Source: Leeuwenhoekiella blandensis MED217
Lineage (GTDB): Bacteria > Bacteroidota > Bacteroidia > Flavobacteriales > Flavobacteriaceae
NCBI RefSeq assembly: GCF_000152985.1
Contig: NZ_CH672395.1
Span: 769,778 to 833,777 of the forward strand
Reading direction: 5' to 3'
DNA length: 64,000 nt
Both the position numbers and the translations under genes were made by a program. Within the stretch, counting starts at the first letter, position 1; each line of letters opens with the position of its first letter. The notes under the pieces were generated by a model that saw nothing but the letters and a program-made list of their open reading frames with translations, searched no databases and was not told the origin of the DNA. Positions 3,885 through 58,843 of this stretch are shown piece by piece.

Positions 3885-3980
3885 ATTGGCACCGGCAAAG
3901 ATTTTAGTATTCTAAAGCTTCTGCGAAATTGAAAATTTGGTTCTAAAAAATGCGTTTTGAGCTTGTCTCGAGGAAGTTTA
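3885..3980 (-). repeat. Dispersed structured repeat, copy R1
   Basis: One of five related elements of about 95 bp; the others are at 13391, 16894, 41051 and 58751. Sense is defined here as running from a GTAAAC/ACTACCTC-like end to a GCCAAT end. R1 begins at the base next to the ecsC stop codon and is read in the same direction as ecsC, so it would be the first part of that transcript's 3' tail. Shared blocks are AATTTTCAATTTC in the middle and CTTTGC..GCCAAT at the end. R1 is the most diverged copy: the final hairpin has a mismatch and the first stem is poorly kept. Confidence 0.7.
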
Positions 3981-4817
3981 CTATTGCTGTAGTTGCAAGT
4001 GCTCGTAGGTTTCTTGAATCAAGTCTTTAGAATATTTGCGCTCTAAACGTATCAACGTAAAATGTGCCGTTGCCATTTTCTGAAAATGCGAGATGAATAA
4101 TACATTTATCGAAGCGCCTCCCACAGCGCCAATTACAGGAATGGCTTGAGCAGCAAATTTTTCTCCTACTTGTACACTAAAACGAGCAGCCACTTGATTG
4201 ATGAGACGTGCAATTGGGGCAGCAGTTTGAGAAGTGATAGTTTCTATTATTTTCTTTGTGCCATTTTCGGCGATATAGGCGCTGGCTTGATTCATTGTGG
4301 TGTGTAAAGCAGCACGCGTAGCATAATAGCTGGTGTCTAGTTCGTCATCGTATTCAGAAGTTCCGCCAAGGGCAAAAACTTGTAAGCACGCCAATTGGGT
4401 TTCAATATTATGAATGTCTTCTCCTTGGCTTCGAGCTATATCCATTATAGAACGCATCATAAACTTAGTAGAAAACAGCAAATCTGCTGTAAAACCTGCT
4501 ACTCCAAAAAAGCCACTTGTAGCTCCTGAAATTCCGGTAGCCAATTTATAGGTTAAGTTTGAAGAAGGTAAACTTCGTTTTTCTGGTCTTAATGTTTTTA
4601 AGTTGGCTTTTACTGCTAGCTGTAGTGCTTTTTGAATAGTGTCGCTTACTTTGTGTTGGATGTTTTCTGGCAAGAGTTCTAGGCCCTGATCAATAGGAGT
4701 TCCTATGGTATTTAGTGCACGCATTAAGAACGAAACTTCATCTAGATTTTTACGTGATATTTTGATAAGCGCTAAATCTTCAAGCGAAATTTTATCTGTT
4801 TTTACGAGTTGCGTCAT
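3981..4817 (-). CDS. EcsC family protein
   Basis: 278-residue protein resembling the EcsC family (named from Bacillus subtilis EcsC; molecular function unclear). Typical are the glycine-rich hydrophobic stretch near residue 93 (ATGISGATSGFFG), the following AGFTADLLFSTKFMMRSI, and the second small-residue stretch AIPVIGAVGGASINVLF near 225-241 before a final helix. There is no signal peptide; the hydrophobic segments suggest membrane association. It appears monocistronic, with TAATTTTG (minus, 4868-4875) as a possible -7 element. Repeat R1 begins right after its stop codon. A further weak hairpin (GAAGAGC/GTTCTTC, minus, around 3865-3884) lies beyond R1 and could help end the transcript. Confidence 0.8.
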   Translation of the reverse strand: MTQLVKTDKISLEDLALIKISRKNLDEVSFLMRALNTIGTPIDQGLELLPENIQHKVSDTIQKALQLAVKANLKTLRPEKRSLPSSNLTYKLATGISGATSGFFGVAGFTADLLFSTKFMMRSIMDIARSQGEDIHNIETQLACLQVFALGGTSEYDDELDTSYYATRAALHTTMNQASAYIAENGTKKIIETITSQTAAPIARLINQVAARFSVQVGEKFAAQAIPVIGAVGGASINVLFISHFQKMATAHFTLIRLERKYSKDLIQETYEHLQLQQ

Positions 4818-5002
4818 AAATCGTGTTCTTAATTGATACTTCTAATTAAAGCCAGAAGGACTATTTCCAAAATTACAAATTAATATAAGTAACCACGTTT
4901 GAATAGTGGCGGTTTTGATGGTATAACGCTTTGTGTGTATTTAGTCTTAGCGCTTATGTAATTGAAAGCAATCTTAGGGAGTAAGATTTTAGAAAGGTAT
5001 TA

Positions 5003-5037
5003 AAAACAAAAAACCCCGAAACAAAAGTTTCAGGGTT
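5003..5037 (-). terminator. Rho-independent terminator, duplicate copy A
   Basis: On the minus strand this reads AACCCTGAAAC, loop TTTT, GTTTCGGGGTT, then a T-rich tail. It is an exact copy of the terminator behind tRNA-Phe (5373-5407), 370 bp away, and now lies downstream of the decayed GIY-YIG gene. Confidence 0.85.
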
Positions 5038-5080
5038 TGTAAGTGGTACCTCCAGCCCCGAGGCTTCGGGGGAACCAGGG
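5038..5080 (-). repeat. tRNA-Phe 3'-end fragment (duplicate, altered)
   Basis: On the minus strand this contains the end of tRNA-Phe: CCCTGGTTC (5072-5080), then CTGGAGGTACCACTTACA (from 5055 downwards), identical to the real gene's 3' end. Between the two parts the gene's five bases GATTC are replaced by a 16-base GC-rich hairpin, CCCCGA-AGCC-TCGGGG (5056-5071). The fragment begins at the base after the GIY-YIG stop codon. With copy A of the terminator it forms the far end of a 53-bp exact repeat (5003-5055 equals 5373-5425). Confidence 0.85.
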
Positions 5081-5364
5081 TTATCTTTTGTTCAGAATGT
5101 TAAACAATAAATTGGGGTTGTCTATTATTTTTTGAATGAATTTCTTACTCTTCATGCGTTTTATAAAGCGTTCGAGAAATAAGGCTTCGGTTCTATCCTT
5201 ACAGGGAAAAGATAGCATCAGTTTCCAGTCATTTCGGCTTTTGTGTAAGCATTTTTAATTGCGTGGGCGTTGTGTAAAGTAATACGCTCTTCAATATTTG
5301 ATGTTTCACCTGTATAGAATTTATCTAGACTCTTTGAATATATGATGTATAGATAGTGCTTCAT
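5081..5364 (-). pseudogene. GIY-YIG nuclease family gene, frameshifted
   Basis: Read from the ATG at 5364, the first 44 codons give a GIY-YIG domain start (KHYLYIIYSKSLDKFYTGET, then SNIEERITLHN). The frame then breaks at about 5230-5234 and hits TGA. Restoring one base (GCCGAA[G]ATGAC) rejoins the second part: DWKLMLSFPCKDRTEA, LFLERFIKRMKSKKFIQ, ending LLFNILNKR and stop at 5081. The mended product would be 94 residues, normal for the short GIY-YIG proteins common in Bacteroidota. The length of 284 bases (3n+2) agrees with one deleted base. The catalytic Glu of the full family falls in the second half (EALFLERFIK), so the present product would be inactive. It lies 8 bases beyond the tRNA-Phe terminator, flanked by duplicated tRNA tails. 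Confidence 0.85.
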
Positions 5365-5372
5365 TTTGGTCT

Positions 5373-5407
5373 AAAACAAAAAACCCCGAAACAAAAGTTT
5401 CAGGGTT
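5373..5407 (-). terminator. Rho-independent terminator of tRNA-Phe, copy B
   Basis: Minus-strand hairpin AACCCTGAAAC-TTTT-GTTTCGGGGTT followed by TTTTGTTTT, six bases after the tRNA discriminator base. Identical to copy A at 5003-5037. Confidence 0.9.
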
Positions 5408-5413
5408 TGTAAG

Positions 5414-5486
<73 letters not shown>

Positions 5487-5501
5487 TCGCTAAAGCGGCT
5501 G

Positions 5502-5532
5502 CAAATATAAAATCAATTTTTAGATTGCACAA
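5502..5532 (-). promoter_or_regulatory. tRNA-Phe promoter
   Basis: Minus strand: TTG (5530-5532), 20-bp spacer, TATATTTG (5502-5509), matching the Bacteroidota TTG/TAnnTTTG consensus. The -7 element is 15 bp before the tRNA 5' end. It diverges from the coaX promoter. Confidence 0.7.
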
Positions 5533-5586
5533 CAGTTAGATGAAAAAATCTTCTAATAATTTTTAGACCTTTTTGTAATTGTATGA

Positions 5587-5615
5587 TTGCGAGGTCTTAG
5601 GTATTTGTATTTTTG
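5587..5615 (+). promoter_or_regulatory. coaX operon promoter
   Basis: TTG (5587-5589), 18-bp spacer, TATTTTTG (5608-5615), 15 bp before the coaX ATG. Fits the Bacteroidota housekeeping consensus. Probably drives the closely packed genes that follow. Confidence 0.65.
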
Positions 5616-5630
5616 CAAAAAAAATAGCTA

Positions 5631-6362
5631 ATGGTAAATCTTGCTGTCGATTTTGGAAATACCCGAGTGAAATATGGAGTATTTCAGGATTCTAAATTGA
5701 TAGAAACCTGGAGTGGCGATGTAGCAGCAGCAAAAGCACAAATATCAAAACTGCAACAAACCTATGTCATAGACCAGGTGATGATCTGTTCTACGGGCAA
5801 TTCAAAAGATTTTGTCACGTTTGCAGAAAAAGCAGGTCTTTCAATTGAGGTTTTATCATCAAAAACAAAATTACCGTTCAGCAATGCTTATGAAACTCCA
5901 GAAACATTAGGCGTAGACAGGATGGCTTTAGTGGCAGGTGCTCAAAAAATGTACCCCGGGAAGCATGTTTTGGTCATCGATGCCGGTACTTGTGTGACGT
6001 ATGACTTTAAAGACACTGCAGATGTTTATCAAGGTGGAGCAATATCGCCTGGTTTGGGTATGCGTTTTAGAGCGATGCACGAATTTACAGCCGGATTACC
6101 GTTGGTAGACTATCCTGAAATGCCTGAAAATGTTATAGGTAAGAATACAAAAAGTGCCATGCGATCAGGAGCAATCCACGGTATTTTGGCCGAAATAGAA
6201 GGGGTAATTAGTTGGTATAAATCAAATTATGAGCCGTTAACGATTATTTTAACAGGAGGAGATGGGCAATTTTTGTCTAGTAGGCTAAAAAATGGCATCT
6301 TTGCGAATTCTAATTTTCTCCTGGAAGGACTGAATTATATAATAGAATTTAATAGAGATTAA
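5631..6362 (+). CDS. coaX: Type III pantothenate kinase
   Basis: Cytosolic enzyme that phosphorylates pantothenate, the first step of coenzyme A synthesis. The 243 residues carry the acetate-kinase-fold signatures of CoaX: N-terminal phosphate motif AVDFGNTRVKYG, the substrate region GVDRMALVAGA (near 98-108), the catalytic motif IDAGTCVTYDF, GAISPGLGMR, and a C-terminal ILTGGDG nucleotide motif. Length is normal for the family. First gene of the run; its TAA shares one base with the ATG of the next gene (TAATG). Confidence 0.96.
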   Translation: MVNLAVDFGNTRVKYGVFQDSKLIETWSGDVAAAKAQISKLQQTYVIDQVMICSTGNSKDFVTFAEKAGLSIEVLSSKTKLPFSNAYETPETLGVDRMALVAGAQKMYPGKHVLVIDAGTCVTYDFKDTADVYQGGAISPGLGMRFRAMHEFTAGLPLVDYPEMPENVIGKNTKSAMRSGAIHGILAEIEGVISWYKSNYEPLTIILTGGDGQFLSSRLKNGIFANSNFLLEGLNYIIEFNRD

Positions 6363-7618
6363 TGATAAAAAGGATATTAGTAGTTGTTTTAATCACCATT
6401 ACAACTTCTGCATTTGCTCAGGAAGGAAATTCATCACCATACTCATTTTATGGTTTAGGGCTCTCTAACTTTAAAGGGTCTATAGAGAATCAAGCGATGG
6501 GAGGTATAAGTATCTTAGGTGATAGTATACATACCAATTTTCAAAACCCGGCAGGTTTTGGAGCATTAAAGCTTACCAATTTTACCATCGCCGGAAGTCA
6601 TCGCGAGACGAACCTAGAGGCGAGCGGAGAGACCGGTTCTACGACTTCAACCACTATAGATTATTTGTCGCTTTCATTTCCCGTTTCAAAACGTTTGGGT
6701 TTTGGCTTTGGATTAATTCCAGAAACCTCTGTTGATTATGAGATTTTTGATGGTGATGATGAGTCGCTGTCGCAATATTCAGGAAGAGGTGGTGTGAACC
6801 GTGCTTTTCTAGCAGCCGGTATTGAACTGTTTAAAGGCTTTAGAATAGGGGCTGAAGGAAGCTATAACTTCGGAAATATCAGAAATGAAAACATTCAGGC
6901 AGATGCAAATCAGCAGTATAGTGTACGCGAGATCGAACAATCTGATGTAAGCGGATTTACGTATAATCTTGGTGCGCAGTACGAATTGACATTTGCAAAA
7001 AAGTATAAAATTTATTCTTCAGCAAGTTTTCAGCCTGAAACCAGCCTTACTTTAGAAAATGAGCGTTCGCTGCAATCTGTGATTTATTCTAGATTGGATA
7101 ACGCCGTCGTAGGAGTGGTAGATTCTCAGGATTTTCCAGTAGGTGATACGGAGTCAATTATTCCAAATAAATATAGTTTTGGATTAGGAGCCGGGCAAGT
7201 AAACAAGTGGTTTGCCGGTGGTCAGGTTGAGTTTGCAGAAACCAGTAACACCTCAAACAGAGGTTTTAATATTGCTAATGCAAGCTATGAAGATTCGTTT
7301 AAGTATCGTTTAGGAGGTTATTTTGTTCCTGATTATAATTCGATAACAAGTTACTGGGGTAGAGTTACTTATAGGTTAGGTGCTCGTTACGAAGAATCAG
7401 GTTTATTGATAGAAAATCAGTCGATTGATGAGTTTGGCATATCTTTTGGACTTGGATTACCGTTAGGAAGAGGATTCAGTAATGCCAACTTAACTTTTGA
7501 GTACGGGCAGCGTGGTACAACCACCGCCGGACTGGTAAAAGAAGATTTTTTCAAAGTTGGTCTTAGTTTATCGCTTAACCCGCTTAGACCGTGGTTTGTT
7601 CCTAACAAATACAACTAA
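6362..7618 (+). CDS. Outer-membrane beta-barrel protein (uncharacterised)
   Basis: 418 residues with an N-terminal signal peptide ending around TSAFAQ (residues 1-19). The mature start SPYSFYGLG and the NFQNPAGFG segment resemble Bacteroidota outer-membrane proteins of the FadL/PorV-like kind. The rest is alternating hydrophobic and polar strands with many Gly, Tyr and Phe, as in a barrel, and no cytoplasmic domain. Starts in the stop codon of coaX, so the two are translationally coupled. Cargo or partner is unknown. It sits in a run that also encodes lptC and a periplasmic chaperone, consistent with an envelope role. Confidence 0.75.
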   Translation: MIKRILVVVLITITTSAFAQEGNSSPYSFYGLGLSNFKGSIENQAMGGISILGDSIHTNFQNPAGFGALKLTNFTIAGSHRETNLEASGETGSTTSTTIDYLSLSFPVSKRLGFGFGLIPETSVDYEIFDGDDESLSQYSGRGGVNRAFLAAGIELFKGFRIGAEGSYNFGNIRNENIQADANQQYSVREIEQSDVSGFTYNLGAQYELTFAKKYKIYSSASFQPETSLTLENERSLQSVIYSRLDNAVVGVVDSQDFPVGDTESIIPNKYSFGLGAGQVNKWFAGGQVEFAETSNTSNRGFNIANASYEDSFKYRLGGYFVPDYNSITSYWGRVTYRLGARYEESGLLIENQSIDEFGISFGLGLPLGRGFSNANLTFEYGQRGTTTAGLVKEDFFKVGLSLSLNPLRPWFVPNKYN

Positions 7619-7649
7619 AATTCTTAATATTGCTTTTTTAAACCTTACA

Positions 7650-9026: not shown

Positions 9027-9616
9027 TGCGTATAAAATCAAGACATATAATCTTAAACTTAGTCACAGCATTTGCTGTGACTTTGTTTTTTAGCTGCGGG
9101 AATGACACCGGCGAGATTCAAAAGTTCAATCAGCGCTCAGAAGGTCCTTCGGCAGAAGGAGAAGGTGTGCTTTTAAAGTATACCGATTCAGGTAAGGTTG
9201 TGGCGACATTAAAAACTCCACTCATTATCGAGTATGGCTTGGTAGATTTTCCTTATGAAGAGTTTCCTCAAGGTGTATCGGTGACGTTTATAGATGATAA
9301 TCAAAAGGAGAATTATGTCACTTCTGACTATGCGATACGTTATAAACGTACTAATTTGATTGATCTGCGCAAAAATGTGGTGTTGATCACCAGCGACTCT
9401 ACGCGGCTTGATGCTTCACAATTGTATTGGGATCAAAAAAACAAATGGGTTTTTACAGATAAACCCTATACCATAAAGTTTCCTGACGATTCTTATAATA
9501 ATGGAGACTTGTTTGACAGCAGTGAAGACTTCAAAAATTTTATATCTTTAGATAATCAAGCCCGTATGTATGTGAGTGAAACTGCTACAGCGGCACCTAA
9601 TGATAGTATACAATAA
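9026..9616 (+). CDS. lptC: LPS export ABC transporter periplasmic protein LptC
   Basis: 196 residues, GTG start in a TAGTG overlap with the TPR gene. The N-terminus is a lipoprotein signal with lipobox FFSCG (Cys24), so this LptC is probably lipid-anchored rather than held by a transmembrane helix as in E. coli. The OstA-like beta-jellyroll region follows (EGVLLKYTDSGKVVATL, then YEEFPQGVSVTFID, YVTSDYAIRYKRTNLIDLRKNVV). LptC passes LPS from LptB2FG to the LptA bridge; none of those genes is in the window, but lptE is at 46837-47355. Confidence 0.85.
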   Translation: MRIKSRHIILNLVTAFAVTLFFSCGNDTGEIQKFNQRSEGPSAEGEGVLLKYTDSGKVVATLKTPLIIEYGLVDFPYEEFPQGVSVTFIDDNQKENYVTSDYAIRYKRTNLIDLRKNVVLITSDSTRLDASQLYWDQKNKWVFTDKPYTIKFPDDSYNNGDLFDSSEDFKNFISLDNQARMYVSETATAAPNDSIQ

Positions 9617-9810: not shown

Positions 9811-9813
9811 TTT

Positions 9814-13355: not shown

Positions 13356-13390
13356 AAAAAAGCGCCGCACATTTGTGCGGCGCTTTTTTT
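13356..13390. terminator. Bidirectional Rho-independent terminator
   Basis: AAAAAAGCGCCGCAC-ATTT-GTGCGGCGCTTTTTTT: 9 GC-rich pairs flanked by A and T runs, so it can work for the ppiD-like gene (+) and for the mevalonate cluster (-). Repeat R2 abuts it on the right. Confidence 0.93.
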
Positions 13391-13490
13391 ATTGGCATCA
13401 CCAAAGGGTTAAGTAACCCGAGGCTTGCCTAGAAATTGAAAACTCGTTTCCTAGCAATGCCTCCTGGGCCTGCCCCGAGGTAGTTTACGG
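13391..13490 (-). repeat. Dispersed structured repeat, copy R2
   Basis: Second copy of the repeat family. In the sense of the convergent GHMP kinase gene it begins 16 bp after the stop codon and ends at the terminator. Visible pairing: CCTC/GAGG near the start, CTAG(G)AAA/TTTCTAG in the middle, TTGGT/GCCAA (loop GAT) at the end. Blocks shared with the other copies include TTTTCAATTTC and CCCTTTGG. Confidence 0.8.
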
Positions 13491-14428: not shown

Positions 14429-15517
14429 TTACTTTATTACAGTTTTGGGATTGTCTGATATGGTTTTTTGAAGCTCATAAAGCGCCTTTACGGCTTCTTG
14501 TGAAGCGGTGTTTGCCATAAGTACAACAGCTATTTTTTTCTCAGGAAAGACAACAGTATGGCAATAATAGGTACCTGTGCTGCCGTCGTGATAACTTAAT
14601 TGTGCGCCGTCTTTAACGATGTTCCCCCAGCCATAAGCATAAGAGGCTTTGCCAAAGTGTAGCGTTTTATAGTCTTCTGATGTTAAGTAGTTGTCAGTGC
14701 CCAGAAGTCCGTTTAAATTCAATTGAATAAACTTGGCATAATCTGCACTGTTCATAGAAAGGTCTCCGGCGCTTGACATATAACTGGGTAATTTGTAGGG
14801 ATGGTTGGGATCGAGCGCAATAAAACTTCCATTTTCTTCAATATGTCCCCAAGGAAACATTTCATTTTCTTTGTTGGGAAAACCTATAAAATAGTCTAGG
14901 TCGAGCTCGTTCATAGTCTCATCAAGAAGTTGTTTGAAGGTCTTTCCGGAAGCTTTCTCTAGCATCAACGCAGCAAGTACATAACCTGCATTTGAATACG
15001 TTCCGGTTTTTGCCGGTGTTTCAGCTAACACAGCTTTGGAGAATGCATAACGTTTTTCTGAAGTAGTGCCTGCAAGGCTGTTGAATTTCGCCAAAGCGGT
15101 ACCTGTTGTATACGGTTTGATCCTGGCGTTATGTGAGAGCAAATCACTTAAAGTAATCGCCTCATAAGCTTTGTCGCTTGAAGCTTTGAGTTCCGGGAAA
15201 AGTTCAAAAAAGGAAGTATCCCAAGTGATGCTATTATTTTCAGAAAGATGCATTGCGATAAAAGAGGTGATAGCTTTCGAATTTGAACCTAAGTGAAATT
15301 TAGCCTCTGGCGTAATACGTTCTTTTTTGGTTGTGCGTACTTTTCCGTTTACGAAAGTGTAGATAGTATCTGGAGTAATCAGATTAACCGAAATTGCAGG
15401 GATCTGATGTTCTTGTTGCGCTTTCTTTATTTGTTCTTGAAAAGCCGTTGAGAATTCCTGACCAAAACAAATCAAGCCGTTTGTAAAAAGAAGTAAAATG
15501 CCTAGCGCCTTTTTCAT
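14429..15517 (-). CDS. Serine hydrolase, class C beta-lactamase/transpeptidase-like
   Basis: 362 residues with a signal peptide (KKALGILLLFTNGLICFGQ). Penicillin-recognising fold: nucleophile motif S78-N-S-K81, Y174-S-N176, and a third-motif equivalent near YHDGSTGTYY. The family includes DD-peptidases, esterases and lactamases; sequence does not settle the substrate. Its position is odd: it lies between HMG-CoA reductase (4-bp overlap) and the GHMP kinase (1-bp gap), so it is translated with isoprenoid genes although it is exported. Confidence 0.88.
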   Translation of the reverse strand: MKKALGILLLFTNGLICFGQEFSTAFQEQIKKAQQEHQIPAISVNLITPDTIYTFVNGKVRTTKKERITPEAKFHLGSNSKAITSFIAMHLSENNSITWDTSFFELFPELKASSDKAYEAITLSDLLSHNARIKPYTTGTALAKFNSLAGTTSEKRYAFSKAVLAETPAKTGTYSNAGYVLAALMLEKASGKTFKQLLDETMNELDLDYFIGFPNKENEMFPWGHIEENGSFIALDPNHPYKLPSYMSSAGDLSMNSADYAKFIQLNLNGLLGTDNYLTSEDYKTLHFGKASYAYGWGNIVKDGAQLSYHDGSTGTYYCHTVVFPEKKIAVVLMANTASQEAVKALYELQKTISDNPKTVIK

Positions 15518-16842
15518 GCGTTTTCAGATTTGCGCAAGTCTGCCAAAAAATGATTTACAGCACTGTGACTTACTTTGTGTGTCTTAAAGTAATGAATTGC
15601 CATCTTTTTTTCTTCTTCTGAAGCGTCAAATTGATTCAGGATATTCATCAAATGCATTTTCATATGCCCTTTTTGAATTCCGGTCGTCGTCAAAGACTTT
15701 ACAGCACCAAAGTTTTGTGCAAGGCCAGCCACTGCGATGATTTCCATCAATTGCGGAGCACTCGGATTACCCAGCATTTCAAGATTCAGTTTTACTAAAG
15801 GATGCAATTTTGTGAGTCCGCCCACGGTTCCCAATGCCAATGGAATCTCGATCCAAAATTTAAAAATCCCATCTTCAATACTTGCGTGCGTTAAGCTCGA
15901 GTAGCTTCCACCTTTGGCCGCATAGGCGTGAGCAGCTGCTTCAATCGCTCTAAAATCGTTGCCGGTAGCGAGGACTACAGCATCAATGCCATTCATAATC
16001 CCTTTGTTGTGCGTGACTGCGCGATAGGGTTCAACTTCTGCAATGCGCACGGCTTGCACAAATTTGTTTGCAAATACCTCCGGGTCAATTCCGTCTGCTT
16101 CAGAAAGTTCAGAAACCGGGCAGCTTACTTCAGCGCGTACCACGCAACCGGGAACATAATTGCTTAGAATACTCATAACCACGACCATTTCAGCATTTGT
16201 GGTTTTAAAAGAATCTTCGGCATTATAAAGGCGTTGCCAGCTTTCAGCGATCTGCTCAAGACAAGTGTTTATAAAATTGGCACCCATTGCATCAAGCGTT
16301 TCAAATGTGGCGTGCAGTTGATAGTAATGTTCAAGTGAATCGGTCTTATCTACCAGAATAAGATCGGTCAATCCGCCGCCGCGACTTTTCATCGATTGTG
16401 TGTGCGGCTCCAGATCTTCTAGGATTTCATCTTTTACCCGATTAAAAAAGGATAGCAACGCTTTGGTATCTCCGGTATAGGTAAAATGAACCTGGCCTAT
16501 TTTTTCAGTACCTAAAATCCTTGCTTTAAATCCGCCGCGAGACATCCAGAATTTGGCTGCTTTACTCGCTGCTGCGACTACTGAGCTTTCTTCGATCGCC
16601 ATAGGGATCGCAAAACTCTTATTGTTGATCACAAAATTGGGCGCGATCCCTAGCGGAAGATAATAGTTGGAGATGGTGTTTTCTATAAACTCATCGTGTA
16701 ACTGCTGCAATTTTTTATCATCATTCCAATACTGCTTTAATATAGTCGAAGCATTGGGGTTGTCTGCTAAGAAGTTTTCAGTCAACCAATTGATCTTTTC
16801 TTCCTTTGTTAAACGAGAAAAACCTTGAACGGTACGAGACAT
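15514..16842 (-). CDS. mvaA: Hydroxymethylglutaryl-CoA reductase, class II
   Basis: 442 residues, the length of class II (Pseudomonas mevalonii-type) reductases. Catalytic set visible: Glu84/85 in AIEESSVVAAASKAAKFW, DAMGANFINT (184-193) for the cofactor site, Lys280 in VTHNKGIMNGIDAV, Asp296 in ATGNDFRA, and His393 in QKGHMKMHL on the flap domain. With the GHMP kinase downstream, the biosynthetic direction (HMG-CoA to mevalonate) is more likely than the degradative one often written in annotations of this class. First gene of a three-gene operon; repeat R3 lies 51 bp upstream. Confidence 0.93.
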   Translation of the reverse strand: MSRTVQGFSRLTKEEKINWLTENFLADNPNASTILKQYWNDDKKLQQLHDEFIENTISNYYLPLGIAPNFVINNKSFAIPMAIEESSVVAAASKAAKFWMSRGGFKARILGTEKIGQVHFTYTGDTKALLSFFNRVKDEILEDLEPHTQSMKSRGGGLTDLILVDKTDSLEHYYQLHATFETLDAMGANFINTCLEQIAESWQRLYNAEDSFKTTNAEMVVVMSILSNYVPGCVVRAEVSCPVSELSEADGIDPEVFANKFVQAVRIAEVEPYRAVTHNKGIMNGIDAVVLATGNDFRAIEAAAHAYAAKGGSYSSLTHASIEDGIFKFWIEIPLALGTVGGLTKLHPLVKLNLEMLGNPSAPQLMEIIAVAGLAQNFGAVKSLTTTGIQKGHMKMHLMNILNQFDASEEEKKMAIHYFKTHKVSHSAVNHFLADLRKSENA

Positions 16843-16893
16843 AGTCTTAAAAATATTGATAACGCAAGTCTATATTAGGATCTTGTGTGTTTT

Positions 16894-16990
16894 ATTGGCG
16901 CCGCCAAAGGGTGTAATTCCCAGAAGCTTAGCTCGAAATTAAAAATTTGTTTTCAACCACTACCTCGTGAGCGTGCCCCGAGGTAATTTA
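16894..16990 (-). repeat. Dispersed structured repeat, copy R3
   Basis: Third copy, in the 410-bp space between mvaA and the DPP IV gene. It has the clearest first stem: TACCTCG/CGAGGTA, 7 pairs with an 11-base loop. The terminal hairpin TTGGC-GGC-GCCAA is perfect. Unlike the other copies it is not next to a gene's 3' end; in sense orientation it points into mvaA and could lie in its leader. Confidence 0.8.
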
Positions 16991-17252
16991 AAGAAGCAAT
17001 TTAACCGAAATCTTCATTTTTAATAGGGGATTCTTGAGATTAAAATAAGTTCAGCATTTTTAATCAGATGGTTTTTGTGTAAACGCACTTAAAAAATCAT
17101 AGTTCAAATCGAAGCCTGTCGTCAAATGGATTGAAGAATTGTAAACGTTAGGGTTCTTTTGCGCAAAACACTGCGTATTTAACAACGAAATTGACGCTTC
17201 TTTAGTTAATTTTTAGTAAAATTGGCGGTCTATTTTTTACGAAATAATAACT
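16991..17252. other. Intergenic stretch before DPP IV gene
   Basis: AT-rich and without a credible ORF. TAAAATTG just before 17227, with a TTG about 23 bp upstream, is a one-mismatch fit to the -7 consensus and may be the DPP IV promoter. Nothing else recognised. Confidence 0.4.
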
Positions 17253-19424
17253 ATGAATATTAGAAAAACTGCCCTTTTGCTATTATTGCTGGTAGCGGGA
17301 GTGGTCACTGCACAGCAAAAGAATATCACCCTTGAAGAAATTTACGACGGCACCTTTAGAATGCAATATCTTGACCGACTGCATTCTATGAATAATGGGA
17401 AAGAATATGCCGTTCTCAATACAGACCGAAATACAGGAACAAAAACACTTGATGTTTATAGCTATAAAACGGGAGAAAAGGTCAATACCTTGATCAACTC
17501 AAGCGAAATTGATGGGCTTGATTATTTTATAGGTTATACCCTAAGTGCAGATGAAAGCAAGGCTTTGTTAAGCACAAAAATGCGTTCGATCTATCGTCGC
17601 TCGTCTTTAGGTGTTTATTATGTTTACGATTTGGAGACCAAAGAATTGGTTCAAGTTGCCGAAGAAGCCATTCAAGAGCCAACCTTCTCACCAGATGCTT
17701 CAAAAGTGGCTTACGGTCTTGATAATAATATTTACATTAAAGATTTAGCTAGTGGAACAACCACTCAGGTTACTACAGACGGAGCTAAGAATAAAGTGAT
17801 CAACGGAATCACAGACTGGGTTTATGAAGAAGAATTTGCCTTTGTAAGAGCCTTTGACTGGAATGCAGACGGAGATAAAATCGCGTACATCCGTTTTGAT
17901 GAAAGCGAAGTTCCTGAATTTTCAATGGATGTCTTCGGAAATGAATTATACCCTTCAAAAGATACATTCAAGTATCCAAAAGCCGGAGAAACCAATGCAA
18001 CCGTAAGCCTTCATATTTACGATGTGACTTCTGCTGATACAAAAGCGGTAGACTTAAGTGGTTTTCAAAACTATTATATCCCACGTCTGGAGTGGACACC
18101 TGAGGCAAATGTGCTTGCAGTGCAAACCACAAACAGAAAACAAAACGACGTCAACTTATTATTTGTTGACGGTACTTCTGGCGAAGCAAAACTCATTCTT
18201 TCAGACAAAGATGATGCTTATGTAGACATCACCAATAACCTGACGTTTTTAGAGGATAATGACTTTATCTGGACCAGCGAAAAGGACGGCTGGAATCATA
18301 TTTATCTTTATGACAAAGACGGGAAGTTAAAGAATCAGGTTACCCAAGGTCCTTGGGAAGTGACCAGTTATTACGGCTATGATCCTAAAAGCAAACGTGT
18401 TTTTTACCAGAGTTCAGAAAACGGTTCAATAAATCGCGGTGTGTATTCGGTTAAAGTAAACGGAAAAAGCAAAAAAGCCCTTGCCACTGAAGCCGGAACC
18501 AACTCGGCTAATTTCAGTACAGATTTCACGTATTTCATAAAGAGTTTTTCTGATGCTGAAACTCCGTATGTGTTTACCTTGAATGCTGCCGATGATGGTG
18601 ATTTAGTGCGAAAGATCAAAGACAATCAGGCGCTAAAAGATCAATTTGCCGATTATGTGATTTCAGAAAAAGAATTCTTTACGCTTCCTATAAACGGCGA
18701 AGAGCTTAACGCATATATGATCAAACCGAAGGATTTTGATCCTAATAAAAAATATCCGGTGTTTATGACCCAATATTCCGGGCCGGGATCGCAAAGTGTG
18801 GCAAACAGCTGGAGTGGTGGAAACGGATATTGGTTTCAAATGCTTGCTCAGGAAGGCTATATCATTGTTTGTGTAGACCCACGCGGAACCGGATTAAAAG
18901 GCCGTGACTTTAAGAAAATGACCCAGAAAGAATTGGGTAAATATGAGGTTGAAGATCAAATCGCTGCAGCACAAGCACTAGGACAGCGCGATTATGTAGA
19001 TGCAGACCGTATTGGGATTTGGGGATGGAGCTACGGAGGTTTTATGGCTTCTAACTGTATTTTTCAAGGCGCAGACACCTTTAAAATGGCGATCGCTGTT
19101 GCTCCGGTAACCAGCTGGAGGTTTTATGATTCGATTTATACTGAGCGTTATATGACGACGCCACAGGAAAATGCTTCGGGCTATGATAACAATTCGCCAC
19201 TTTCTCATGTAGATAAATTAGAAGGAAAGTTTTTATTGGTACACGGTAGCGCAGATGATAACGTGCACGTTCAAAACAGTATGCGTTTGATCGAGGCTTT
19301 GGTACAGGCCAATAAACAATTTGACTGGGCGATATATCCTGATAAAAATCACAGTATTTACGGGGGTAACACACGCTTACACTTGTATACTAAAATGACG
19401 AATTTTATTAAAGAAAATCTATAA
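17253..19424 (+). CDS. Dipeptidyl peptidase IV (S9B family serine peptidase)
   Basis: 723 residues with a signal peptide ending at VVTAQ. An N-terminal beta-propeller (DPPIV_N) carries the Glu pair motif DWVYEEEFAF that anchors the substrate's free N-terminus. The alpha/beta hydrolase domain has Ser593 in GWSYGG, Asp668 in GSADDNVH and His700 in DKNHSIYGG; the Asp-His spacing of 32 equals that of human DPP IV. It releases X-Pro or X-Ala dipeptides from oligopeptides in the periplasm. Two POT dipeptide transporters follow directly (6-bp gap to the first), which makes a cut-and-import module. Confidence 0.95.
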   Translation: MNIRKTALLLLLLVAGVVTAQQKNITLEEIYDGTFRMQYLDRLHSMNNGKEYAVLNTDRNTGTKTLDVYSYKTGEKVNTLINSSEIDGLDYFIGYTLSADESKALLSTKMRSIYRRSSLGVYYVYDLETKELVQVAEEAIQEPTFSPDASKVAYGLDNNIYIKDLASGTTTQVTTDGAKNKVINGITDWVYEEEFAFVRAFDWNADGDKIAYIRFDESEVPEFSMDVFGNELYPSKDTFKYPKAGETNATVSLHIYDVTSADTKAVDLSGFQNYYIPRLEWTPEANVLAVQTTNRKQNDVNLLFVDGTSGEAKLILSDKDDAYVDITNNLTFLEDNDFIWTSEKDGWNHIYLYDKDGKLKNQVTQGPWEVTSYYGYDPKSKRVFYQSSENGSINRGVYSVKVNGKSKKALATEAGTNSANFSTDFTYFIKSFSDAETPYVFTLNAADDGDLVRKIKDNQALKDQFADYVISEKEFFTLPINGEELNAYMIKPKDFDPNKKYPVFMTQYSGPGSQSVANSWSGGNGYWFQMLAQEGYIIVCVDPRGTGLKGRDFKKMTQKELGKYEVEDQIAAAQALGQRDYVDADRIGIWGWSYGGFMASNCIFQGADTFKMAIAVAPVTSWRFYDSIYTERYMTTPQENASGYDNNSPLSHVDKLEGKFLLVHGSADDNVHVQNSMRLIEALVQANKQFDWAIYPDKNHSIYGGNTRLHLYTKMTNFIKENL

Positions 19425-40573: not shown

Positions 40574-41038
40574 CTATAGGTCTAAAAACACTTTGTAGCT
40601 GAAAAGCGCTTCGTTAACCACTTCGATAGTAGTATCACCAAAAGAGATGTTTTCTATTAGGGTGTTGGGGCAGCAAACGTTTGTTGCAGTGTCAGGTTCT
40701 GAATAAAAACTTACCTCAAAAAGCAATTCTTCATTCGTAGAAATTTGATACGTAATTTGTGAAGGTCCGTCAACGTAGCTGGCTAGAGGAATATTGAGTA
40801 TATCCTGGTAAAGCATCAATGGCACTTCATCGCTAGTCTCAATAATTGTGATGGTCAGCTCTTCTTCGGTTAGAGTTCCATTCTCAAAAAGATTTTCTCC
40901 GCTTGAGGCTGAGATGAGTTCTAGATTTAAATCATTAATTGCGCAATCCACCAAGCTGCAGTCGGGTAGATTTTGGTCATCATTGTTGTTGCAGCTGAGC
41001 ACTGAAAGGCTTAGGGCCAGTAAAATAAAAAATCTCAT
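40574..41038 (-). CDS. Hypothetical lipoprotein
   Basis: 154 residues with lipobox LSVLSC (Cys16) followed by an acidic NNNDDQNLPDC stretch. It has three further pairs of Cys positions (LVDC, VCCPN) and a beta-rich body. No family recognised. Convergent with the permease gene with only 3 bp between stops. Repeat R4 lies just upstream, beyond its start. Confidence 0.65.
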   Translation of the reverse strand: MRFFILLALSLSVLSCNNNDDQNLPDCSLVDCAINDLNLELISASSGENLFENGTLTEEELTITIIETSDEVPLMLYQDILNIPLASYVDGPSQITYQISTNEELLFEVSFYSEPDTATNVCCPNTLIENISFGDTTIEVVNEALFSYKVFLDL

Positions 41039-41050
41039 AATAGGTTGTTT

Positions 41051-41150
41051 ATTGGCGCCACCAAAGGCTTAGTACTACTGAGTTTGTCTTGAAATTATAC
41101 ATTTGTTTCTAACAAATGTCTCGAGGACTCGCCCTGAGGTAGTCTACTAT
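41051..41150 (-). repeat. Dispersed structured repeat, copy R4
   Basis: Fourth copy, 33 bp after the stop of the GAF gene and read in its direction. The central hairpin is perfect here: CATTTGT-TAGAA-ACAAATG. The terminal hairpin is TTGGT-GGC-GCCAA (one G-U pair). The same central stem in R5 has a paired C-G in place of T-A. Confidence 0.8.
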
Positions 41151-41183
41151 GAGATGTGTATTTTTAAAAAAGGTTGCGTAAAA

Positions 41184-52894: not shown

Positions 52895-52897
52895 TGC

Positions 52898-54064: not shown

Positions 54065-54107
54065 CAAATAAAAAATTCTGGGTTTGAATGTTATTTTTAT
54101 CAAAAAA

Positions 54108-54138
54108 TTGCTTTTTAGCTTTTTTATAGATAGGTTTA
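54108..54138 (+). promoter_or_regulatory. Candidate gldK operon promoter
   Basis: TTG (54108-54110), 20-bp spacer, TAGGTTTA (54131-54138, one mismatch to TAnnTTTG), 34 bp before gldK. Confidence 0.4.
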
Positions 54139-54171
54139 CTGTCTCAAATCTAGATTTAACCTAATCTACTT

Positions 54172-55545
54172 ATGAAGAAGTTTATTGCATTTATTGCGAT
54201 GGTAAGCTTATTGGTGAGTTGTGGTCGTAACGACCGTGGCGAGCTTGTTGGAGTGAAAGGCAAAAAATGGAATCCTGAAAAACCCTACGGAATGACTTTA
54301 GTTTCTGGTGGGGCTTTTATCATGGGTAAAAGTGATGATGATATCGCCGCCATCAAAGATGCGCCAACTAAAACGGTTACTGTACGTTCTTTTTATATGG
54401 ACGAAACCGAAATTACCAACTCAGAATACCGTCAATTTGTTAAATGGGTACGTGACTCAGTAATTCGTGCACGTCTTGCCATAGAAGCTGACCTTATGGG
54501 AGAAACTCCAGGGTCTGGTGGGATTGGTGAGTTTGCGTTTCAGGATTATGATCCTGATGATATGACTCCTTATGAGCAATATATGTACGATAACTACTAT
54601 AGTCTAAGTGATGATTATAGTGATCGTAAGTTGAATTGGGATGTCGATCTTTTTGAAGATCCTATGGATTATCCTGACGAATACTACGTTTCTGTAATGG
54701 ATACGATGTACATTCCATTAGAAGAAGCTTATAACGGTCAGCGTACGGTTGATGTGGAGAAGCTTGTGTTCAAATACAAGTATCTCGATATGGAAGCAGC
54801 CGCTCGCGAGAAAAATGGTTCGCGTAGAGATTTTATTAGAACTGAAGAGACTAAGATTTATCCTGATACCACGGTATGGATTAAAGATTTTGCTTATTCG
54901 TACAATGAGCCGATGCATAATGATTACTTCTGGCATAGTGCTTACGACGATTATCCTGTTGTGGGGGTGAGCTGGCAGCAGGCAAAGGCATTCTGTCAAT
55001 GGCGTACAGACAACAAAAACTCATATAAAAAGCAAAGAGGTCAAGAGCTTGTGAACCGTTTTAGACTTCCTAGTGAAGCCGAGTGGGAATATGCTGCGCG
55101 TGGTGGTTTAGAAGGAGCAACCTATCCTTGGGGTGGCCCTTATACCAAAAATGATCGTGGTTGTTTTATGGCAAACTTTAAGCCTTTGCGTGGTGATTAT
55201 GCTGCAGATCAGGCGCTTTATACCGTTGAGGCCGATTCTTATGAGCCTAATGATTATGATTTATACAATATGGCGGGTAATGTTTCAGAATGGGTAGGTT
55301 CATCATATGATCCTAATGCTTATGAATACATTTCTACAATGAACCCTAACGTAAGTGACAGTAAGAACGAGCGTAAGGTTGTTCGTGGTGGCTCTTGGAA
55401 AGATGTGGCATACCTTATTCAAGTAAGTACCCGTGATTATGAATATGCAGATTCTGCACGTAGTTATATTGGTTTTAGAACCGTACAAGACTACTTAGGA
55501 GTAGAACAGGACGTCAATATGAGAAATGGTCCATCTCGTCGTTAA
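54172..55545 (+). CDS. gldK: Gliding motility/T9SS lipoprotein GldK
   Basis: 457 residues. Lipobox LLVSCG (Cys16), then a formylglycine-generating-enzyme-like (sulfatase-modifying) domain: MTLVSGGAFIMGKSDDD, FYMDETEITNSEYRQFV, VVGVSWQQAKAFCQWR, RLPSEAEWEYAARGG, YNMAGNVSEWVGSSY, RKVVRGGSWKD, ending YIGFRTVQ. Forms an outer-membrane-associated periplasmic ring with GldN in the type IX secretion system. Followed by gldL, gldM and gldN. Confidence 0.97.
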   Translation: MKKFIAFIAMVSLLVSCGRNDRGELVGVKGKKWNPEKPYGMTLVSGGAFIMGKSDDDIAAIKDAPTKTVTVRSFYMDETEITNSEYRQFVKWVRDSVIRARLAIEADLMGETPGSGGIGEFAFQDYDPDDMTPYEQYMYDNYYSLSDDYSDRKLNWDVDLFEDPMDYPDEYYVSVMDTMYIPLEEAYNGQRTVDVEKLVFKYKYLDMEAAAREKNGSRRDFIRTEETKIYPDTTVWIKDFAYSYNEPMHNDYFWHSAYDDYPVVGVSWQQAKAFCQWRTDNKNSYKKQRGQELVNRFRLPSEAEWEYAARGGLEGATYPWGGPYTKNDRGCFMANFKPLRGDYAADQALYTVEADSYEPNDYDLYNMAGNVSEWVGSSYDPNAYEYISTMNPNVSDSKNERKVVRGGSWKDVAYLIQVSTRDYEYADSARSYIGFRTVQDYLGVEQDVNMRNGPSRR

Positions 55546-55551
55546 CCTCTA

Positions 55552-55571
55552 ATATATTTCCCCAAATATAT
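55552..55571. other. Intercistronic hairpin gldK-gldL
   Basis: ATATATTT-CCCC-AAATATAT: 8 perfect but AU-only pairs, 6 bp after the gldK stop; no T run follows, so it is not a terminator. May affect mRNA stability. Confidence 0.4.
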
Positions 55572-55608
55572 CTTAACCTAATTTCACTAAACAAAAAATC
55601 TATTTAAA

Positions 55609-56247
55609 ATGGCAAAAAAAGGAAAACTTTCAGTGACTAACATGATTTACGGTCTAGGAGCGGCAGTAGTAATTGTAGGTGCACTATTTAAAATTCAACA
55701 CTGGCCTTTTGGTTCAGAAATTCTTACCCTAGGAATGGTTGTTGAAGCTTTGGTTTTCGGTTATTCAGCATTTGAGAGACCATCACAAGAATTAGATTGG
55801 TCTTTGGTTTATCCTGAGCTTGCAGGTGATAGCCCGGCGGTTGTAAAGCCTAAAAAACAAGAAGAGCTTACCGAAACAAAAGGTTTGCTTTCAGAAAAAT
55901 TAGATGCGATGCTTAAAGATGCGCGTATTGACTCTGAGTTGATGACAAGTTTAAGTACAAGCATTAGAAGCTTTGAAGGGGCGGCAAAAGGAATGGCGCC
56001 TACTGCAGAAGCAATGAACTCAACTAAAAAGTACAGCCAAGAGATGTCTCTTGCAGCTGCACAATTAGAATCTCTAAACAGTCTTTACAAAGTGCAGGTT
56101 GAAGCTGCAGGGCGTCAGGCTGAGGTTAACAAGGAGGTTGCTGATAATGCCGGAAAGCTTAAAGAGCAAATGGAGAGTCTGGCAACAAATCTTTCTTCTC
56201 TTAATGGTGTTTATGGCGGAATGCTTTCTGCAATGAATAAGCGCTAA
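55609..56247 (+). CDS. gldL: Gliding motility/T9SS inner-membrane protein GldL
   Basis: 212 residues. Two helices close to the N-terminus (MIYGLGAAVVIVGALFKIQHWPFG with the conserved KxxHWP, then ILTLGMVVEALVFGYSAF), then a long cytoplasmic coiled coil. With GldM forms the proton-driven motor of T9SS. Confidence 0.96.
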   Translation: MAKKGKLSVTNMIYGLGAAVVIVGALFKIQHWPFGSEILTLGMVVEALVFGYSAFERPSQELDWSLVYPELAGDSPAVVKPKKQEELTETKGLLSEKLDAMLKDARIDSELMTSLSTSIRSFEGAAKGMAPTAEAMNSTKKYSQEMSLAAAQLESLNSLYKVQVEAAGRQAEVNKEVADNAGKLKEQMESLATNLSSLNGVYGGMLSAMNKR

Positions 56248-56283
56248 CTGAATTCTTTTAAACTAAATATTAAATAATTCAGT
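56247..56283. other. Intercistronic inverted repeat gldL-gldM
   Basis: ACTGAATT (56247-56254) pairs with AATTCAGT (56276-56283) across a 21-base AT-rich loop, starting in the gldL stop codon. No T run. Confidence 0.4.
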
Positions 56284-56297
56284 AGAAAAAATACATT

Positions 56298-57830
56298 ATG
56301 GCAGGAGGAACACAGTCGCCAAGACAGAAAATGATCAATCTCATGTACCTTGTATTTATCGCAATGATCGCGATGACTACAGACAAAGAGATTTTAAATG
56401 CTTTTAAAATATTTGACGTAAAATTCACCAGTTCTAATACACGTTTAGAACAAGAGAATGAATTGGCAATGGCCGGCTTAGAAGAGAAGGCTGTTGAGCA
56501 ACCGGCAAAATATGAGCCTTTGCTGAGTAAGGCAGAGCGTGTAAAGCAAGTTTCAGATGACTTTTACAGTTATTTAGGAAACATTAAAGACACTTTAACC
56601 GAAGGTGTCGACACCAGCAGTTATGCAAATCTTGATAAAACGGCAGTTCTTGATGAACGCTGGTTTACAGGAGATCGTTATACAAAGAAAGGAGAGGCTT
56701 TCTTAGCTAAAATTGACGAGTATAAGGCAGAGATGAAAGACGCACTTGGGCCAGAATTTAGCCAAGTGAATGCAATTATTGAAAGAACCTTTGCAGTAGA
56801 GCCGCAAACCAACAAAGACGGTAAAGAGATCGCTTGGTTGCGTTATAACTTTGAAGGTTATCCATTAGCAGCATCCATCACACGTTTTACACAAATGCAA
56901 AATGATGTGCGTACGGCTGAGTCAGAAGTGTACTCATCTTTATTACAAGGGCAGTTGAGTAAGGATGTGTCTTTAAGTAACTATCAAGCTATTGTTATTC
57001 CAGACAAAACAGCTTTCTTTTCAGGAGAAAATTTTAAAGGAAAAGTTGTTTTAGGACGTTTTGATAACTCGCTTAATTTTGACAAAGTAATCATAAACGG
57101 AACTGAGGTAGATAACTTGCAAGCTGGTCAGGTAGTATTAGATTTTCCGGCAGGAAATGTTGGTACGCGTAAGATTAGTGGTGAGCTTGTTTATACTGAA
57201 GAAGGAGAGCCAAAATCAATTCCTATCAACAGTGAATACGCAGTAATCAACAAACCAAACTCAGCAACTATTTCTGCAGATAAAATGAATGTGGTGTACC
57301 GTGGAGTTGCAAACCCTATGACCATTAGTTTTGCGGGAGTTGCAGATAACAATGTTACTGCAAGTGCTCCGGGTCTTTCTAGAGCTTCAGGAAGTAGCTA
57401 TGTTATGAATCCAGGGCAAGGGCGTGAAGTAACCATTAATGTTTCAGGAACTTTGGCTGACGGAACTAAAGTGAGCGACTCAAAGCAATTCCGTATTAAA
57501 GATATTCCAAGTCCAATCGGAGCTGTTCGTGGAGAAGATGGAATACTAAAAATGCAACGTAATTCGTTAGAGATATCAGAAGTAAGTGCAAAATTGCCTG
57601 ACTTTGATTTTGAATTGAATCTGCGAGTAACCGGATTTAAATTCAACGTGCCGGGACAGCCTACCGTTCAAGTGAGTGGTAATAAGCTTGATTCTCGAGC
57701 GAAAGATGTACTACGTAGAGCACAGCGTGGTTCTACAGTGCAAATATTTGACATTGATGCTCAGATTGCAGGAAACAGCAGTTACCGACTTAAAAAGGTA
57801 TCACCTGTATTAATTGAGCTCACTAATTAA
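56298..57830 (+). CDS. gldM: Gliding motility/T9SS protein GldM
   Basis: 510 residues. Starts AGGTQSPRQKMINLMYLVFIAMIAMTTDKEILNAF, the single membrane helix typical of GldM, followed by the large periplasmic part: helical bundle then Ig-like beta domains (ISFAGVADNNVTASAPG; LRVTGFKFNVPGQPTVQVSGN). The helix joins the GldL motor and the periplasmic part reaches the GldK-GldN ring. Confidence 0.97.
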   Translation: MAGGTQSPRQKMINLMYLVFIAMIAMTTDKEILNAFKIFDVKFTSSNTRLEQENELAMAGLEEKAVEQPAKYEPLLSKAERVKQVSDDFYSYLGNIKDTLTEGVDTSSYANLDKTAVLDERWFTGDRYTKKGEAFLAKIDEYKAEMKDALGPEFSQVNAIIERTFAVEPQTNKDGKEIAWLRYNFEGYPLAASITRFTQMQNDVRTAESEVYSSLLQGQLSKDVSLSNYQAIVIPDKTAFFSGENFKGKVVLGRFDNSLNFDKVIINGTEVDNLQAGQVVLDFPAGNVGTRKISGELVYTEEGEPKSIPINSEYAVINKPNSATISADKMNVVYRGVANPMTISFAGVADNNVTASAPGLSRASGSSYVMNPGQGREVTINVSGTLADGTKVSDSKQFRIKDIPSPIGAVRGEDGILKMQRNSLEISEVSAKLPDFDFELNLRVTGFKFNVPGQPTVQVSGNKLDSRAKDVLRRAQRGSTVQIFDIDAQIAGNSSYRLKKVSPVLIELTN

Positions 57831-57843
57831 AAGATTAAGAGGT

Positions 57844-58734
57844 ATGAAAAGCCAGATGCAAGCGTTAAGTGTTTTTTGTTTGATGATGTTGGGTACGGCC
57901 GTAATGGCACAAACCAATATTCTCAATGCAAAAATGCCTGGTGAAATGTTTGAGAAGACCGAAAGCCAGAAGCAGCTAGACAATGATAAACCATTACCAT
58001 ACGGTTATGTAGATAGCCGTGATGTGCTATGGGGTAAAAATACTTGGGAGATCGTAGATCTTGATGAGCGTGTCAATTTCCCGCTGTACTATCCTATAGA
58101 TACAAACAATATTGGTTCAGATCGTAGATCGCTTTATGATGTTTTGGTTAAAAATGTTAAAGCAGGTAAGCTTGATATTTATGCAGATTCATACTTTAAT
58201 CAAAAAATTGAATTAAGCGATATTGCTGCAGCAATGTCACGTGTTGATACCACAGATTTAGGTATCGAGCAAATCAATGCAGGTTATGAAGTCGATGAGC
58301 AATACATTGACCGTAGAGATATCTCTGCTGCTGATATTGAACAATATTGGATACGTGGTTATTGGTACTTTGATAAGCGACAGGGAGAATTAAAATATCG
58401 TCTGATTGGTTTAGCTCCGGTTGCACCAGATGTTAACTTTATCGATGATGAAGATCCTGTAATGGTGCCACTTTTTTGGGTTTGGTATCCTACCGCACGT
58501 GATATTTTACACGAGGCTAAGGTGTTTAACCCACAGAACTCTGCACAACCGATCTCTTTTGATCATATCTTGAATTCTCGACGTTTTAATGGCGTTATTT
58601 ATCAGGTTGATAATATTCAAGGAGATCGTGAGGTTAAAGAGTATATCGCAGATAATGCGATGATGCAGTTGCTCGAATCACAACGTATCAAAGAACAAAT
58701 ACGCAACTTTGAAATTGATATGTGGAATTATTAA
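57844..58734 (+). CDS. gldN: Gliding motility/T9SS protein GldN
   Basis: 296 residues from the ATG at 57844; this start puts a signal peptide (KSQMQALSVFCLMMLGTAVMAQ) at the N-terminus, whereas the longer in-frame start at 57814 would overlap gldM. The GldN pattern is seen: KPLPYGYVDSRDVLWGKNTWEIVDLDERVNFPLYYP, IRGYWYFDKRQGELKYRLIGLAP, VPLFWVWYPTARDIL. Partner of GldK. Repeat R5 and a terminator follow. Confidence 0.96.
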   Translation: MKSQMQALSVFCLMMLGTAVMAQTNILNAKMPGEMFEKTESQKQLDNDKPLPYGYVDSRDVLWGKNTWEIVDLDERVNFPLYYPIDTNNIGSDRRSLYDVLVKNVKAGKLDIYADSYFNQKIELSDIAAAMSRVDTTDLGIEQINAGYEVDEQYIDRRDISAADIEQYWIRGYWYFDKRQGELKYRLIGLAPVAPDVNFIDDEDPVMVPLFWVWYPTARDILHEAKVFNPQNSAQPISFDHILNSRRFNGVIYQVDNIQGDREVKEYIADNAMMQLLESQRIKEQIRNFEIDMWNY

Positions 58735-58750
58735 GTTCAAGTTCGCTAAA

Positions 58751-58843
58751 AACTACTTAATGGTAAGCCCAAGAAGCATTCGTTAGAGACGAATTTTCAA
58801 ATTCACGGCTAGCCTAGGTTATTGAGCCTTTGGCGATGCCAAT
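58751..58843 (+). repeat. Dispersed structured repeat, copy R5
   Basis: Fifth copy, 16 bp after gldN, same sense as gldN. Central hairpin ATTCGT-TAGAG-ACGAAT; end hairpin TTGGC-GAT-GCCAA (perfect, 3-base loop). A terminator follows within 6 bp, as with R2. The strand is opposite to the other copies, but the orientation relative to the neighbouring gene is the same as for R1, R2 and R4. Confidence 0.8.

Follow-up and report, generated by a model that had tools for sequence, protein, structure and literature searches.

What explains the presence of five related sequences of about 100 bp, scattered over a single 64,000-nucleotide stretch of a flavobacterial genome? The stretch, hereafter the window, comes from Leeuwenhoekiella blandensis MED217 (contig NZ_CH672395.1, positions 769,778 to 833,777), and the five copies are designated R1 to R5. 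A preliminary description of this DNA had offered two readings of the element, a mobile unit and a structured element of 3′ untranslated regions (3′-UTRs). The first of these stood and the second did not, as the orientation to genes is not fixed and covariation is absent. We conclude that the element is very probably a non-autonomous member of the IS200/IS605 superfamily, of the kind called PATE (palindrome-associated transposable element), in which a left end (LE) and a right end (RE) are fused without the transposase gene tnpA.

Copies of the element and the origin of its ends

A profile made from the five window copies recovers these same copies at E values of 7e-33 to 2.6e-26, which is true by construction; the independent test is the existence of many further copies elsewhere. 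BLAST of the genome of the window's organism (G000) with R4 as query gave 26 matches, the query counted. The genome search proposed in the preliminary description, conducted with a covariance model built from 24 copies, yielded at least 138 matches at E ≤ 1 and at least 126 at 30 bits or more, five of which lie in the window; the best reach E 2e-27. Because 150 of 1879 first-look candidates were scored, the copy number of 126 is a lower bound, and no sixth window copy appeared among the candidates scored. The 126 copies retain 46–97 of the 100 consensus positions (median 80). The element was also present in 15 of 60 genomes searched and in 62 of 397 sampled Flavobacteriaceae genomes (50 of 237 genera), the own genome included in both searches; the latter survey used stricter filters and scored ten candidates per genome, and its per-genome copy numbers are minimum values. 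An apparent new RNA family is replaced in this way by a mobile-element family.

The top strand of the element, which is the reverse complement of the sense used in the preliminary description, reads TTTA/TTGGC-NNN-GCCAA-AGGG-TTTAATAC-hairpin-...-hairpin-TAG-TTTA/, with slashes at the two ends. These ends, TTTATTGG... and ...GGTAGTTTA, do not form an inverted repeat. The lack of terminal inverted repeats ruled out a DDE-type miniature inverted-repeat transposable element (MITE). The consensus has a subterminal hairpin at each end; the left one lies about 26 nt beyond its TTTA, and the right one is separated from its TTTA by 3 nt. In these two hairpins 78–85% of cells are paired, with no covariation. 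An LE of about 55 bp and an RE of about 40 bp are thus joined with no tnpA between them, in a unit too short to encode a transposase.

Mobility was most apparent in a Flavobacteriaceae genome of another genus (G033), which carries 17 copies above 75 bits, eight of them sharing the score 114.4. Fifteen copies are near-identical across the whole unit and end abruptly at the same base within unrelated flanks; two copies carry an extra hairpin module. TTTA precedes the LE in 17 of 17 copies, and the base after the right TTTA is C in 16 of the 17, followed by T in 14. Additional copies in G033 combine an identical right end with different inner modules and a different left-end hairpin. We also searched a 4.4-kb piece containing R2 and R3 in 13 genomes of the genus, the own genome included. 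The R3 site is present without the element in G006, G003, and G010, where it reads GTTTA or ATTTA. The R2 site lacks the element in seven aligned congeners, in which GTTTA, TTTTTTTA or GTTTTA comes after a terminator-like hairpin; the terminator at R2 therefore predates the insertion. Most of these element-free sites have a TTTA at the junction or directly beside it. R2 itself occupies the orthologous place in G011 and so has been inherited since before G000 and G011 split. That the element is mobile by nature is close to certain.

The ends could be traced to IS200 elements that retain their transposase gene. A scan of named genomes with the transposases of the IS200 loci L197 and L213 retained 80 of 414 relatives, and the ends of 41 of these 80 were inspected. 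Locus L348 (Aquimarina sp. RZ0, with tnpA) matches the element at 39 of 50 LE and 29 of 32 RE positions, and L342 (a Flavobacteriaceae metagenome-assembled genome, with tnpA) at 38 of 50 and 32 of 36. L368 (G406), in which the gene is broken, matches at 40 of 54 and 25 of 32, and L360 (G160), whose protein is 78% identical to the L348 query, matches at 39 of 50 LE positions. LE alignment scores of these four loci were 38–51, whereas none of the 19 further loci that were aligned exceeded 34. For the RE, L342 (54) and L348 (45) exceeded the values found elsewhere (at most 34), and L368 (29) did not stand above the rest. Since both ends match tnpA-bearing elements, the 100-bp unit corresponds to the LE and RE of an IS200 clade minus the gene. 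When the L348 protein was searched against the 397 family genomes, 20 had a match at E ≤ 1e-20, and 18 of these loci, L360 and L368 among them, were aligned; the element occurs in 8 of the 20, compared with 62 of 397 overall (p = 0.006, genome relatedness being ignored). Among other IS200 loci, L197 and L213 have one end resembling that of the element, and L204 has a weak match (E 8e-5) about 500 bp from tnpA. In G004 and G005, IS200 elements belonging to a different subgroup show TTTA/TTGG before the gene and GTGGTTTA after it.

By analogy with this family, the element would be mobilized by a Y1 HUH transposase acting in trans, which would cut the top strand out of the lagging-strand template as a single-stranded circle and insert it on the 3′ side of a TTTA in a different lagging-strand template.

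Orientation relative to genes and replication

If the element were instead a structured 3′-UTR RNA, a stabilizer or small-RNA source kept selectively after genes, its orientation should follow the genes. In the window, four of five copies turn the same end (CTACCTC) towards a stop codon, as had been described. This does not extend to a general rule or to a fixed position after genes: among the 123 of 126 copies with both neighbors identified (mechanical, uncurated open reading frames), 71 have a stop codon on the side of the CTACCTC end (p = 0.10) and 63 on the side of the other end. By context, 36 copies are tandem with the stop codon facing the CTACCTC end, 35 convergent, 28 tandem in the opposite sense, and 24 lie between divergent genes; 9 of the 126 overlap an open frame of at least 100 amino acids. 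The median distance of 19 bp, where the CTACCTC end faces a stop codon, speaks for the 3′-UTR reading.

The consensus does contain hairpins, and the preliminary description had cited compensatory changes in a central stem. These were not borne out in 24 copies. With that stem and three hairpins, 82.2% of cells were paired, compared with 82.0% in shuffled alignments (194 of 500 as high), and covariation did not exceed that of the shuffles, 104 of 500 reaching the score and 120 of 500 the number of both-side pair changes. One pair of the central stem is broken in 20 and another in 13 of the 24 copies. RNAalifold predicted six pairs; for two of these, just one sequence shows a compensatory change. 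The hairpin adjoining the left end is the best preserved (96.7% of cells paired), with too little variation for a covariation test. In the window, no Rfam family matched the element at the gathering score. A permissive Rfam search of four loci returned six matches, of which a SAM riboswitch was above its cut-off but outside the element and five were below their cut-offs; a BSnc120 match overlapping the element (27.5 bits against a cut-off of 114) was taken as chance.

Orientation is better accounted for by replication. Two fitted switch points account for 112 of 138 orientations. With the replication axis fixed from the GC skew of sampled stretches (about 0 and 1.925 Mb), 100 of 126 copies are concordant (Fisher 2e-11), and other cut-offs gave 108 of 138, 60 of 81, and 36 of 46. 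Genes do not explain this, since concordance holds in all four context classes (29/36, 29/35, 22/28, and 19/24, or 79–83%). The 17 strong G033 copies similarly fall into one minus arc (1.84–2.97 Mb) and one plus arc. Of the exact matches to the end pattern in that genome, 32 of 33 fit two arcs; a further 44 matches, which deviate from the pattern at one or two positions, appear more mixed. The small-subunit (SSU) rRNA genes (one complete and two partial in G000, three complete in G033) run with the top strand and opposite to the sense of the preliminary description, which places the top strand co-directional with the fork, that is, on the lagging-strand template. The partial SSU rRNA matches in G000, at genome positions 764821-765455 and 1494993-1495632, are perhaps fragments or masked stretches. 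In a review (PMC5371812), the orientation of IS200/IS605 elements is described as recapitulating the direction of replication.

With replication setting orientation in every context class, 24 copies between divergent genes, no covariation, no Rfam match in the window at the gathering score, and near-identical G033 copies at unrelated places, the 3′-UTR reading is largely refuted, and we regard it as highly improbable. No function as an RNA is evident, and copies evidently decay after insertion.

Several observations weigh against an IS200 derivation with insertion into the lagging-strand template. A Y1_Tnp domain (PF01797) was not found in G000 or G033, although it occurs at E ≤ 0.01 in 10 of 17 genomes examined, and a protein search found no L348-type tnpA in G000; the enzyme is therefore deduced from relatives, and the presence of many copies in two genomes where no transposase was found raises the question of where it came from. 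No RE match to the element was obtained by alignment at L360. R3 is also missing, with no visible TTTA, from the more diverged G001 and G009. The flanks of element-free sites have diverged, leaving exact junctions unproven. TTTA stands at the LE and at most element-free sites but also closes the RE, and target and element are thus indistinguishable at filled sites. Twenty-six of the 126 copies do not follow the axis. Finally, dnaA lies at 1.854 Mb (genome 1854390-1854875, L055), near the terminus deduced from GC skew and rRNA. Were this gene to mark the origin, the leading-strand template would be the one carrying the top strand, contrary to the IS608 rule; neighboring genes show no preference for the presumed leading strand (117 of 246) and do not help to place the origin. 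The opposite strand assignment implied by dnaA was set aside in favor of rRNA and GC skew.

The missing transposase also bears on a family of repetitive extragenic palindromes (REPs or REPINs) spread by a domesticated REP-associated tyrosine transposase (RAYT, or TnpA-REP). Many REPs are defined by a GTAG foot. The element shares with them an intergenic location, palindromes, and a high copy number, and the congeners G004, G009, G010, and G011 have Y1 proteins of 186–198 amino acids, RAYT-like by length. The RAYT-type transposase that the preliminary description suggested looking for did not turn up in G000, where, as in G033, there is no Y1_Tnp match; four RAYT-like loci (L199, L200, L206, and L207) have no match to the element, and the ordered 100-bp pair of LE and RE matches IS200 ends. 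We therefore consider a REP/RAYT origin very unlikely.

Terminator-like hairpins at the left end

The preliminary description had reported terminators directly beside R2 and R5, and both terminator-like hairpins were confirmed in the sequence. They proved a real clue, to the target site and not to an RNA function. We examined 92 G000 copies of at least 50 bits for a hairpin whose end lies no more than 10 nt ahead of the left-end TTTA, with a mirror test at the right end. A hairpin was present at the left end of 37 copies and at the right end of 8 (p = 8e-7), compared with 160 of 1580 control noncoding TTTA sites in the same loci. Requiring a T-rich tail gave 35 of 92 copies against 105 of 1580 controls. 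The excess held at sites preceded by at least three T (26/35 against 42/111 controls) and at those with none or one (8/48 against 95/1285). Within 150 nt after a same-strand gene, 26 of 37 copies had a hairpin as compared with 70 of 396 controls; by distance, the values were 0/4 against 6/116 (0–30 nt), 23/26 against 24/97 (30–60 nt), and 3/7 against 39/179 (60–150 nt). Only one of the 37 left-side hairpins resembles the right end of a neighboring copy.

The spacing was also characteristic. The outermost G/C pair and TTTA are separated by a gap of 3–4 nt in 25 of 37 copies, as against 41 of 182 controls, and in 24 of 32 against 38 of 99 when the controls were terminator-like (p = 4e-4); at the element's own right end the gap is 3 nt (TAG). 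Since the rules had been chosen after the first cases in G000 and G033, seven other genomes from five genera, selected for high copy number and with orthology between their copies unchecked, provide an independent test under nearly the same rule. In 60 of the 61 copies listed there, a hairpin was found at the left end of 13, the right end of 1, and 22 of 427 controls, with a gap of 3–4 nt in 8 of the 13. By genome, the counts were 3/10 (G291), 3/10 (G335), 2/5 (G383), 4/10 (G135), 1/6 (G331), 0/10 (G367), and 0/9 (G186).

A preference for terminators at insertion is apparent from these data, and survival bias weighs against it. Insertions behind terminators may simply be harmless and persist, making target preference unnecessary. 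The excess is indeed strongest 30–60 nt past stop codons; it is missing in G367 and G186 (0 of 19 together), and it is slight among the young G033 copies, where only 3 of 17 have a hairpin, all three in the T-tail of a strong one. Against survival bias stand the side asymmetry (37 against 8 of 92), the excess over other TTTA sites 3′ of genes and over sites matched for T-runs (26/35 against 42/111), and the preferred spacing. We regard survival bias as a plausible though not the favored explanation.

If insertion itself is selective, it would favor a TTTA located 3–4 nt past a hairpin, mostly in the T-tail of an intrinsic terminator, as a statistical preference. Such a terminator is similar to the right end of the element itself (hairpin-TAG-TTTA) and might for that reason be readily taken as a substrate in single-stranded DNA. 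We tentatively suggest that a lineage of single-strand transposons uses terminators as landing pads on the lagging-strand template because a terminator (hairpin, 3–4 nt, TTTA) mimics RE geometry and is mistaken by the transposase for its substrate, an idea that may well prove wrong. As a hypothesis, it is supported statistically in the majority of the tested genomes, though not in every one. Were the preference a true target choice, it would be one route by which single-strand transposons reach safe intergenic sites. It can be tested, because young, near-identical copies and tnpA-bearing relatives exist. No description of a terminator preference of IS200/IS605 elements was found in the open-licence papers searched.

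Group IIC introns insert after terminator hairpins. A remnant of such an intron, or of another retroelement, would accordingly share this target and could show a strand bias. Both ends of the element, however, match tnpA-bearing IS200 elements, and the element is only 100 bp long; on these grounds, with no separate search for intron features, a retroelement remnant is extremely unlikely. attC sites, group II intron remnants, and MITEs were also considered and were dropped once the IS200 ends had been found.

The window copies, their variants, and known systems

The five full-length copies reported in the window were all confirmed, with ends shifted slightly to the IS-type boundaries. R1 spans 3882-3980 on the plus strand, its left end at 3882 (nhmmer 89.0 bits; covariance model 81.9 bits at genome 773659-773757), and is decayed, the left end reading TCTA instead of TTTA. 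R2 spans 13388-13487 (plus), with TTTA/TTGGC at 13388 and GGTAGTTTA at 13487. The hairpin and T-tract directly before its left end, read from the sequence at 13356-13390 (plus), have a stem at 13362-13383 and a gap of 4 nt; a simple terminator scan did not list this hairpin. R3 (16891-16990, plus) lies between divergent gene starts, those of an HMG-CoA reductase-like gene (15514-16842, minus) and a DPP IV-like gene (17253-19424, plus). R4 spans 41048-41146 (plus; the sense of the preliminary description is on the minus strand). R5 (58749-58846, minus, left end 58846 and right end 58749; the earlier sense on plus) lies 14 bp past the stop codon of a GldN-like gene (57814-58734). The terminator-like hairpin directly before its left end, at 58849-58877 (minus), has a stem at 58853-58870, A/T tracts on both sides, and a gap of 6 nt.

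R4 may lie inside the loop of a hairpin (41032-41155) whose arms, read by eye, are 41032-41039 (ATCTCATA) and 41148-41155 (TATGAGAT), a placement that differs from the commoner one just after a stem. Near R3, the stretch 17157-17320, which begins upstream of the DPP IV-like gene and extends into it, shows 97% identity to G011 and 90–92% to G006, G003, and G010, whereas the neighboring genes are about 71–79% identical in these four genomes. An Rfam search of the stretch found no match; it is possibly a conserved leader or promoter.

Many copies carry inserted modules. In G000, 27 of 126 have an insert of at least 10 bp (for example, at genome 1623802, 3381820, and 3021509). Most of these inserts are variants of a single palindromic module of 22 bp, found at the tip of the right-end hairpin, in some copies at that of the left-end hairpin, and in one copy at both. 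Longer relatives in G033 (L214-L243, e.g., L216, L234, and L240) have a common right end and stacked, interchangeable hairpin modules; G000 copies, too, contain a module like TCCCGATAGCTAT, seen in these relatives. In a tree of 81 copies, of which 17 have a right-hairpin module, this label changed 15 times, which decides nothing given about 74 columns and no shuffled expectation.

Among known systems, group IIC introns are ribozyme retroelements whose ends and size are unrelated to those of the element. REP/RAYT systems, as described in PMC6006769, likewise comprise intergenic palindromic repeats linked to Y1 enzymes. Unlike them, the element is an LE+RE pair of fixed polarity rather than one REP alone or two in inverted arrangement, and no RAYT was found here. 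With IS608 and ISDra2, as described in PMC6006769 and PMC5371812, it shares subterminal hairpins, replication-linked orientation, and probably a target tetranucleotide beside the left end, but it is 100 bp long and has no tnpA, none having been found in G000. The closest likeness is to the PATEs of Haloquadratum walsbyi. These are described, in the portion of PMC3119063 consulted, as having no terminal inverted repeats, near-terminal palindromes as in IS605-type elements, and a length too short for a transposase; the distance from terminus to palindrome is greater on their 5′ side than on their 3′ side, and the palindromes contain insertions of other small repeats, which the 22-bp inserts resemble. 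The element thus agrees with PATEs in its lack of terminal inverted repeats, subterminal palindromes, asymmetric end spacing, and inserted modules. It differs in being bacterial (Flavobacteriaceae) and tied to a tnpA-only IS200 clade, and its replication-strand bias and preference for terminator T-tails do not figure in that portion of the PATE account.

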